Part shown: positions 513 through 1,992 of the stretch, piece by piece
Layout of the letters: each line of letters opens with the position of its first letter
Numbering within the stretch: the first letter of the stretch is position 1
From: an uncultured Clostridia bacterium
Lineage (GTDB): Bacteria > Bacillota > Clostridia > Oscillospirales > Ruminococcaceae
Length of the DNA: 42,649 bases
Reading direction: 5' to 3'
NCBI GenBank assembly: GCA_947627455.1
Contig: CANQWC010000017.1
Location: 1-42,649 of the forward strand
Position numbers and translations under genes: made by a program
Notes under the pieces: model-generated
Database searches by the model: none
Seen by the model: only the letters and a program-made list of their open reading frames with translations
What the model was told of the DNA's origin: nothing

Positions 513-941
513 TTATCGAATTTGCGTATAGATAATTTTTTCGATGCTCTCGGCAAGACGGTCGGCCTCATCTATGTTTGTGCAGAAGAATCTGATGTCG
601 CCGTCCTCGGTTGATATCACAACCTCGGGCTTTCCAAAGAGCCTTTTGCGGCGCGATTCTGCGCGGTTTATGCTTTGGGCGGGCACATATTGCGCTTCAT
701 AGCCCGCGCCCGTTTTCACTGCGCATATAAGCCTCTCGCTCGTGATGACAAAAGCCGCTTTGCCGTATTTATTGCCCCTTGCAGAAAAACCGTTGGTGCA
801 CCAGCACAAGTATATGAATTCGTTGAGCCTTACGCAGTCTTCGATCACCGCGAAGCCTCTCGGGCAGCCCCTCGGACTTGGCGAAAAGCCGTTTGACACC
901 GCAAACTCGTTCATTTCATAAGCTTTTGCTATTCCGTTCAT
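513..941 (-). CDS. Hypothetical protein with PH-like C-terminal domain
   Basis: A 142-residue protein without signal peptide or membrane segment. The start at 941 is chosen because AGAGGA lies 7 nt upstream; a longer in-frame start at 1049 would run through the small-RNA terminator. The C-terminal half (about residues 60-140) has alternating strands (AAFVITSERLICAVK, PEVVISTEDGDIRFF) and a closing helix, the pattern of bacterial PH-like domains that often bind lipids or partners. The N-terminal part, with a conserved-looking CxTNGFxARGNKYGKA stretch, is not recognised. It lies only about 23 nt after the terminator of small RNA copy 1, on the same strand, so read-through from that RNA promoter could express it. 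The family assignment is inference. Confidence 0.6.
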   Translation of the reverse strand: MNGIAKAYEMNEFAVSNGFSPSPRGCPRGFAVIEDCVRLNEFIYLCWCTNGFSARGNKYGKAAFVITSERLICAVKTGAGYEAQYVPAQSINRAESRRKRLFGKPEVVISTEDGDIRFFCTNIDEADRLAESIEKIIYTQIR

Positions 942-963: not shown

Positions 964-1120
964 TAAAAAATGCGTGGTATCAAGCCCACGCACGAAAAAC
1001 ACTCGGCTCGATTGTTGCCACACAATTTTTTACTCAAAAGAAGAAACAAGGTACAGAGTTAAGAGCCCGCGTTTTTACCAATAAAAACGGCGACCTTGTT
1101 TCAACATTAAATTGTGTGGC
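964..1120 (-). ncRNA. Structured small RNA, copy 1
   Basis: A predicted transcript of about 157 nt starts at the G at 1120, the first base of a closing helix (1109-1120 with 1017-1028, 12 bp). Inside are helix P2, GAAACAAGGT (1043-1052) with ACCTTGTTTC (1093-1102), and hairpin P3 (1070-1077 with 1082-1089). After the closing helix comes a conserved GAGCC (1005-1009) able to pair with GGCTC in the P3-P2 strand (1063-1067), a possible pseudoknot. It ends in a TGCGTGG/CCACGCA hairpin (971-992) and a T-rich tract. Copy 2 shares this plan. No known RNA family is recognised; it could also be a 5' leader of the gene at 513-941. Confidence 0.8.
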
Positions 1121-1126
1121 GAGAGT

Positions 1127-1155
1127 ATTATATCACAATGAAATCGGCCTGTCAA
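1127..1155 (-). promoter_or_regulatory. Perfect sigma-70-type promoter of small RNA copy 1
   Basis: On the minus strand, TTGACA (1150-1155) and TATAAT (1127-1132) are separated by exactly 17 nt. The predicted start (1120) coincides with the first base pair of the RNA closing helix. Confidence 0.88.
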
Positions 1156-1204
1156 GCGTTGATTTTTGCTTTTATGACAAATACTCCTCTATGTTTTTCT
1201 CAAA

Positions 1205-1367
1205 ATAAAAATGCGTGGTATCAAGCCCACGCACGAAAAACACGCGGCTCGATTGTTGCCACACAATTTCAACTCGAATCGGAATAACATGATGAGTCAG
1301 AGCCTGTATTTTTACCAAGATGGTTAAAATAAAGACACATGTTATTCCTTATATGAAATTATGTGGC
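1205..1367 (-). ncRNA. Structured small RNA, copy 2
   Basis: This is a tandem copy of the RNA at 964-1120, predicted at about 163 nt. The closing helix (1356-1367 with 1258-1269) has a single A/C mismatch. P2 is GGAATAACATG (1281-1291) with CATGTTATTCC (1338-1348): its sequence differs from copy 1 at most positions yet pairs fully. P3 (1307-1317 with 1321-1331) also differs but still pairs. The 3' block (1212-1269) is almost identical between copies, including GGCTC/GAGCC and the terminator hairpin (1212-1233) with its T tract. The change of both strands of P2 and P3 together is direct evidence for a selected RNA fold. Confidence 0.8.
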
Positions 1368-1373
1368 AAGTGT

Positions 1374-1434
1374 ATTATATCACCGAGATGTTGATATGTC
1401 AAGTGTTGACATTAAAAAACGCGCATGTTATAAT
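1374..1434. promoter_or_regulatory. Back-to-back divergent consensus promoters
   Basis: Minus strand: TTGACA (1397-1402), 17 nt, TATAAT (1374-1379), driving small RNA copy 2. Plus strand: TTGACA (1406-1411), 17 nt, TATAAT (1429-1434), driving the gene at 1453. The two -35 boxes are only 3 bp apart and form the palindrome TGTCAA-GTG-TTGACA, so two polymerases could hardly bind at once. The plus-strand start near 1441 leaves almost no leader before the GGGAGG ribosome binding site. Confidence 0.85.
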
Positions 1435-1452: not shown

Positions 1453-1992
1453 ATGTCAACAAGCAAAAAGGTCGGGCTGGCGCTCCTTGCGGCGGCAGCG
1501 CTCATACTCATTTTCATGATAATCACCTTTGACACCGTCGAAGATACCGCGGTCGAGCAGAACGGCGCGGGCTTTACGGTCGTGAATAACATGCTCAGAA
1601 CCGACGACTATTCCTTCAGCGTCACGGCTGAGCCTGAATTTGACGGCGACAAGACCGTCATCGCCATTGATATATCCTCATCTCCTGCCGATTTCGAGCT
1701 CGCCGAGATCTCGGCCGCGATAAACTTTCCCGACGGCGTCTCGTTCAGCCTCTCCGAGTTGGGCGAAGATTCATCGCCCATTGATCTGCCGCCGAGCGCG
1801 CTTTTACATTCTGTCGGGGCATCGGGAGAGGGCGGCCTGAGCTTTACCGCCGATTTCATCGGCCCGCTGCCCGAAAAATCGCCCGAGCTTGAGCTCACCT
1901 ACGGCCTTCGCGGCAGGGGGCTTCGCTTCATGACCCGAATGAGAGACATCAAGGTGAAGATCCCGCTCGACGGAATCTTTACCCAAAATTAA
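1453..1992 (+). CDS. Hypothetical membrane-anchored extracytoplasmic protein
   Basis: A 179-residue protein. The ATG at 1453 follows GGGAGG with a 7-nt gap; an in-frame start at 1363 lies upstream of the promoter and is rejected. Residues about 7-25 (VGLALLAAAALILIFMIITF) form a single N-terminal membrane segment without a clear lipobox or cleavage site, so an anchored protein with an outside C-terminal part is likely. The rest is acidic and strand-rich, with no motif I recognise. It is transcribed from a perfect promoter divergent to the small RNAs. Confidence 0.65.
   Translation: MSTSKKVGLALLAAAALILIFMIITFDTVEDTAVEQNGAGFTVVNNMLRTDDYSFSVTAEPEFDGDKTVIAIDISSSPADFELAEISAAINFPDGVSFSLSELGEDSSPIDLPPSALLHSVGASGEGGLSFTADFIGPLPEKSPELELTYGLRGRGLRFMTRMRDIKVKIPLDGIFTQN

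Follow-up and report, generated by a model that had tools for sequence, protein, structure and literature searches.

A class of structured, conserved RNAs of about 160 nt, which matches no family in Rfam 15, is represented twice on the minus strand of the 42,649-nt stretch of DNA from an uncultured Clostridia bacterium that we analyzed here (the window). We conclude that each copy is probably a promoter-leader-terminator cassette that controls the next gene by transcription attenuation, in the manner of a riboswitch. The preliminary description of this DNA had offered, as one option, a leader of the gene at 513-941 in which a GAGCC motif changes partners. This option is favored by a swap test of pairing partners, by the position of the gene and by the near-equal energies of the competing folds in relatives.

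The two units had been predicted to carry a promoter, a start at P1, a paired P2 and a terminator each, and this anatomy is borne out (Table 1). Their order has been corrected to B, A and then gene 513-941; the element proper occupies 965-1367, and promoter B extends its upstream end to 1402. The promoters were rightly called perfect, with 12/12 matches in both, and the first G of P1 lies 6 nt past the end of the -10 box in A and B, in agreement with the proposed start. P1 is a 12-bp helix (GCCACAYAATTT/AAATTGTGTGGC) that is the same in both units. As claimed, P2 differs in sequence yet pairs in each, with GAAACAAGGT/ACCTTGTTTC in A and GGAATAACATG/CATGTTATTCC in B. Identity between A and B is 64% in the core that the P1 strands flank, and 97% over 64 nt in the 3' blocks described as nearly identical. 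Each unit also contains a hairpin, P3, and its terminator is GC-rich. The GGCTC/GAGCC pair was found and proves to be the terminal part of a more extended complementarity between AAAAA..GGCTC and GAGCC..TTTTT. The second partner suggested for GAGCC was found as well: the motif lies within ATCGAGCC, which is complementary to GGGCTTGAT in the terminator. The predicted folding of both units beats 200/200 dinucleotide-preserving shuffles (z -4.6 and -7.4).

Table 1. Features of the two leader units and the gene that follows them (positions in the window).
Feature	Positions	Strand	Remark
Promoter of unit B, TTGACA-N17-TATAAT	1374..1402	-	12/12 matches
Unit B, upstream leader	1206..1367	-	covariance-model match
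P1 5' strand of B, pairs with 1258-1269	1356..1367	-	
P2 5' strand of B, pairs with 1281-1291	1338..1348	-	
Strand 1 of B (P3 5' side)	1322..1334	-	
Strand 2 of B (GGTAAAA..GGCTC)	1300..1316	-	
P2 3' strand of B	1281..1291	-	
P1 3' strand of B	1258..1269	-	
Strand 3 of B: pseudoknot partner and antiterminator 5' arm	1234..1250	-	
Terminator of B; 1220-1228 doubles as antiterminator 3' arm	1207..1234	-	
Promoter of unit A, TTGACA-N17-TATAAT	1127..1155	-	12/12 matches
Unit A, gene-adjoining leader	965..1120	-	covariance-model match
P1 5' strand of A, pairs with 1017-1028	1109..1120	-	
P2 5' strand of A, pairs with 1043-1052	1093..1102	-	
Strand 1 of A (P3 5' side)	1081..1089	-	
Strand 2 of A (GGTAAAA..GGCTC)	1063..1079	-	
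P2 3' strand of A	1043..1052	-	
P1 3' strand of A	1017..1028	-	
Strand 3 of A: pseudoknot partner and antiterminator 5' arm	993..1009	-	
Terminator of A; 979-987 doubles as antiterminator 3' arm	965..993	-	
142-aa gene downstream of both leaders	513..941	-	

The ATG of ORF 513-941 lies 23 nt past the end of unit A. Its 142-aa protein has no Pfam or NCBIfam match, and homologues with 53% (L015) and 36% (L016) identity are found behind the leader in two further genomes of the genus. A 5S rRNA (161-276) and a tRNA-Asn(GTT) gene (313-388) lie past the 3' end of this ORF on the opposite (+) strand. A third perfect TTGACA-N17-TATAAT promoter at 1406-1434 (+) stands back to back with promoter B, before an ORF at 1453-1992 (+).

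The absence of a recognizable family, noted in the preliminary description, holds under systematic comparison: no Rfam 15 family reached its gathering cut-off over the window element or over 37 loci of relatives. When matches with E up to 10 were admitted for the window, four appeared far below cut-off, the best with 29 bits against a cut-off of 73; the relatives were scanned with E up to 1. A 6S-like RNA had been put forward, and the size and long hairpin of the units would suit 6S RNA. The genome has a separate Rfam 6S RNA at G000:C25:30972-31162, however, and the RF00013 covariance model gave no match over the element. With no family at cut-off in the window or the 37 relative loci, we consider the chance that the element is 6S RNA or another known Rfam RNA to be negligible. 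The T-box covariance model, which is part of Rfam, likewise matched neither the window element nor the 37 loci, and a T-box-like UGGN contact was considered and rejected, as the terminal UGGC of P1 changes to UCGC, UAGC or UUGC in step with its partner. A literature search that included the exact sequence yielded no description of the element that we recognized; the 2017 list of 224 candidate RNAs (doi 10.1093/nar/gkx699) lay outside this comparison, and an earlier description there is possible.

Relatives are widespread among Clostridia. A DNA search found them in 6/31 genomes of the genus, the window's own included, and a covariance model built from seven sequences matched in 21/31. A 32-sequence model matched in 34 of 297 genomes drawn from the family, and a 67-sequence model in 119 of 345 drawn from the order and 96 of 391 drawn from the class. 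In a draw of 398 genomes from the phylum, at a stricter threshold (E 1e-7), the sole match was the window's own genome, which also speaks for the specificity of the model. The searches from family to phylum used stricter filters, about 7-9 scored candidates per genome and, below phylum level, a threshold of E 1e-5, so copy numbers are lower bounds; some genomes in the family draw have at least nine copies. A pattern scan matched 66 stretches of genome contigs, including some from the cultured Hungatella hathewayi DSM 13479 and [Ruminococcus] torques ATCC 27756, and 11 of viral contigs. Annotated phage records gave no match for the window, nor did annotated plasmid and phage records for the L147 leader; the evidence for a link to phages comes from IMG/VR contigs and neighboring genes. 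A metagenome-assembled genome labeled Flexilinea (Chloroflexota) has seven copies (L091, L100, L129, L142), with matches in 0/80 other genomes searched of its family, and represents either transfer across phyla or a mis-binned genome. At L010/L038/L124 (G023:C11), a decayed unit that keeps its 3' block and has lost its promoter and P1 5' strand lies beside a gene read by eye as prfB. At L035, a SAM riboswitch (1335-1418, minus strand) lies about 80 nt upstream of a leader and is divergent from it.

From 159 match rows, 22 that were weak, partial or on the reverse strand were left out (8/44, 11/85 and 3/30), and the remaining 137 reduce to 113 distinct units, which are partly orthologous and hence not independent. 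Segments were parsed in 99 of these (14 were dropped), and clustering of sequences above 72% identity gave 23 representatives. Because of a parsing error, L072 was omitted from the swap test (22 representatives) and the energy comparison (98 units). In the swap test, each segment was tried with the partner segments of all other sequences, and the advantage of cognate over swapped pairs was compared with 2000 shuffles. Cognate pairs were favored for P1 (z -11.3) and P2 (z -16.0), with 0/2000 shuffles each, and for P2 the cognate was the best partner in 22/22 cases. The same was true of P3, formed by strands 1 and 2 (z -6.1), of the pseudoknot between strands 2 and 3 (z -8.2, or -7.1 without A/U runs) and of the antiterminator between strand 3 and the terminator arm (z -5.8), again with 0/2000 shuffles each. 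Three control pairings of unrelated segments were null (z -0.11, 0.25 and -0.77). Strand 3 wins both with its cognate strand 2 and with its cognate terminator arm, and therefore one strand co-varies with two partners. The cognate was the single best partner in only 6/22 cases for P3, 8/22 for the pseudoknot and 4/22 for the antiterminator, because these segments are similar between sequences.

The covariance search suggested in the preliminary description supports P1, P2, P3 and the pseudoknot in relatives, with the exception that P3 is missing in a few long variants. When P1 and P3 were scored on 67 sequences, 95.8% of cells were paired, double changes occurred in 15/20 pairs and 0/500 shuffles were as good, compared with 39-63% paired for slid versions of the structure; these figures are favored by the fact that the alignment was fitted to the same P1/P3 structure. 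P1 shows two-sided changes such as GCCACA/UGUGGC, GCGACA/UGUCGC, GCUACA/UGUAGC and GCCAAA/UUUGGC. In L016, strand 3 has AAGUC in place of GAGCC, strand 2 has GACUU and the terminator has GGCUUAGUUG, so that all three have moved together. In the long variants L070, L075 and L077, strand 1 and P3 are absent by eye while the pseudoknot complementarity is kept; thus, the P3 arm of the relay is not universal.

The two alternative folds of the 3' domain are close in energy. Over 98 units, the terminator fold averages -18.1 kcal/mol and the antiterminator fold -18.3 kcal/mol, with a mean difference of -0.25 kcal/mol (sd 2.8). The folds lie within 5 kcal/mol of each other in 94/98 units, and the antiterminator is the more stable in 61/98. 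In unit A the terminator fold is favored by 3 kcal/mol, and in unit B the two folds are about equal. Compared with shuffled 5' arms, the antiterminator has a mean z of -3.3 (18/22 below -2, 4/22 not). Mutually exclusive conformations of the kind expected of a riboswitch are thus found by computation, in the swap test, against shuffles and as iso-energetic folds. A U.A-U triplex in place of competing helices was considered and set aside: both U strands are antiparallel to the A strand, so alternation appears to be the simpler arrangement.

In the mechanism that we propose, RNA polymerase would start at P1, and P1 and P2 would enclose a loop containing strand 2 (GGUAAAA...GGCUC). In the off state, strand 2 would pair with strand 3 just past P1 to form the pseudoknot, and with strand 3 occupied the terminator would form and transcription would stop. 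In the on state, strand 2 would pair with strand 1 in P3, leaving strand 3 free to bind the terminator's 5' arm and loop and form an antiterminator that allows read-through. The relay could therefore be written as 1:2 + 3:4 for gene on versus 2:3 + 4:5 for gene off. A signal recognized by the P1-P2-loop domain, with a small molecule or second messenger as the likeliest candidate, would set its balance, and in the window two such cassettes would act in series ahead of gene 513-941. That the leaders switch in cells, that they do so in this direction and that a ligand exists is what we infer from the computed anatomy.

The genomic position of the units fits this attenuation model. Three sets of units were used for the counts: 108 followed by 500 nt of sequence, 112 preceded by 60 nt, and 104 whose divergent side was long enough. 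An ATG ORF of at least 60 aa led by a Shine-Dalgarno (SD) sequence begins within 60 nt downstream of 73/108 units, in 69 of them at 14-49 nt, compared with 4.7% of 4000 random positions and 2/104 on the divergent side. The units thus occupy the 5' leader position, before an SD and a start codon, that is characteristic of riboswitches, and their structured, co-varying domain is likewise of the kind that riboswitches conserve. Promoters with at least 9/12 matches precede 87/112 units versus 5% of shuffles, and in 98/112 the distance from the end of the -10 box to P1 is exactly 6 nt.

A consensus promoter and a terminator in every unit, and folding beyond all shuffles in A and B, would also suit stand-alone trans-acting small RNAs, for which the terminated 160-nt transcripts would be the product and gene proximity secondary. 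Further, 35/108 units have no strict SD-led ATG ORF within 60 nt, and the upstream members of tandem arrays, such as B, frequently lack their own gene. The frequency of SD-led ORFs directly behind the units argues against this explanation, however, as does the co-variation of strand 3 with the terminator arm, which a plain small RNA would not need. We regard it as improbable, and the leader function as much better supported. The trans-acting role raised in the preliminary description is needless for copies that directly precede a gene; for upstream units such as B it is possible, and terminated leaders might also act in trans.

Two other ways of setting the alternation are each very improbable. 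In the first, a counter-transcript would act as in the antisense-RNA attenuators of plasmid rep genes, whose relay the 1:2/3:4 versus 2:3/4:5 scheme resembles. Antisense promoters are not enriched, however (3/23 representatives versus 18.5% of shuffles), and no plus-strand promoter lies within 964-1367. In the second, a ribosome would stall on a short leader ORF. The attenuation architecture is compatible with such a peptide, and under a loose rule (an SD-like motif, a start codon and 6 or more codons) a short ORF is found in 35/113 units, a proportion that shows it is not conserved; among representatives, such an ORF occurs in 2/23 versus 25% of shuffles. Moreover, because the RNA starts inside P1, there is no room for a ribosome site before P1.

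Arrays of two or three units recur among the relatives. Promoters with at least 9/12 matches precede 28/28 units of 13 arrays, which were chosen for being tandem (L135 and L192 were left out). Several arrays have upstream units that lack their own gene. In L185 and L191, what appears by eye to be a truncated copy of the downstream gene's start follows the upstream unit, which ties the leader to the gene start. In 14 tandem pairs the P2 arms are 57-59% alike (53%, sd 9, for random 14-mers) and the 3' blocks 89% alike. Diversification of P2 after duplication was considered and rejected: in 275 between-locus pairs whose 3' blocks share 90% or more (97/113 units parsed), the P2 arms are likewise 56-59% alike, so nothing peculiar to tandem copies is seen. 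For the 51 of these pairs in which the loops are also similar, the P2 arms are 68-71% alike. The two tandem units of L189 (1111-1582, plus strand) have an identical loop and next 40 nt, 3' blocks that are 98% alike and P2 arms of random-like similarity. In L106, L113 and L130, a small HTH-like gene (MMQIVNASQL...) follows arrays of 2-3 units, and the units are separated by a hairpin of the CCCCCGCC/GGCGGGGG type.

The downstream genes are diverse. A Pfam scan covered 82 of 95 listed downstream proteins, and the best 25 of 81 matched families were considered. Among the matches listed, the commonest families are BspA-type LRR (8), zinc ribbons (5), PASTA (5), HTH_3 (2) and SHOCT (2); many other downstream proteins have, by eye, lipoprotein-like starts. 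No common pathway is apparent among the 82 proteins for the matches listed, the commonest family accounting for 8/82, and the genes therefore suggest no ligand. The gene behind the leader is PASTA-like in Hungatella and R. torques (below the Pfam cut-off in the latter), with a DUF2800 gene nearby. Similar genes, with a DUF2800 gene nearby, lie behind the leader in L098, L117 and L147, which come from two cultured genomes and a viral contig. The PASTA-like gene is found in L098 and, below cut-off, in L117, the L147 protein being alike by eye, and a 915-aa HTH protein is encoded near the leader in L117 and L147. This neighborhood resembles a prophage- or element-like module.

A host RNA-binding protein that recognizes the P1-P2-loop domain could control the same alternation, and the swap test, energies and covariation apply equally to such an attenuator. 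Diverse targets would fit a global regulator, and copies are found on phage-like contigs. Against a protein, a pseudoknotted domain of this size would seem to exceed the needs of most protein sites, and we consider this explanation rather unlikely. Sensing of a small molecule is our first choice over a protein or RNA regulator. We suggest, tentatively, that these leaders of gut and rumen Clostridia form a large, undescribed class of riboswitches for a signal in wide use, which may be a second messenger. Such a class would be a portable promoter-aptamer-terminator cassette, found in about one quarter of the genomes sampled from the taxonomic class, frequently with several copies each and in some cases in tandem, whose five-strand relay would put unrelated surface, accessory and prophage-like genes under one signal.

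If this reading is correct, a regulatory RNA class carried by 119/345 order genomes and 96/391 class genomes sampled has been missing from Rfam. Its targets, which include LRR, PASTA, zinc-ribbon, HTH and many lipoprotein-like proteins, belong to a poorly understood part of gut Clostridia, and the common leader would offer a handle on what these diverse genes have in common. Since Ruminococcus torques ATCC 27756 and Hungatella hathewayi DSM 13479 are cultured carriers, the signal can be sought directly.

Several known RNAs share parts of this design. The raiA/ModT RNA is likewise a widespread structured RNA of Clostridia (PMC11706538); the Rfam comparison gave no match to it here, and the window-type units differ in being tied to downstream genes. 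6S RNA has size and a long hairpin in common with the units, whereas the units precede genes and carry an antiterminator pairing, and the 6S RNA of this genome lies elsewhere. The antisense attenuators of pT181- and pIP501-type plasmid rep genes use a relay of alternating helices that ends in a terminator, as the window class appears to do; in contrast, the window class lacks enrichment of antisense promoters and serves many unrelated genes, mostly genomic. The c-di-GMP (GEMM) and other second-messenger riboswitches occur as multiple copies in a genome, ahead of a variety of surface and phage genes. The window class is alike in this respect and differs from them in sequence and architecture, without a match to these Rfam families. 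Transcription-terminating riboswitches as a group differ in that no Rfam class matches, that the window-class targets have no common pathway and its ligand-sensing domain is a candidate one, and that each tandem copy has its own promoter. They nevertheless share with the window class a leader position before an SD, tandem copies, a structured domain that is conserved, and pseudoknot, antiterminator and terminator pairings that exclude one another and are of near-equal energy.
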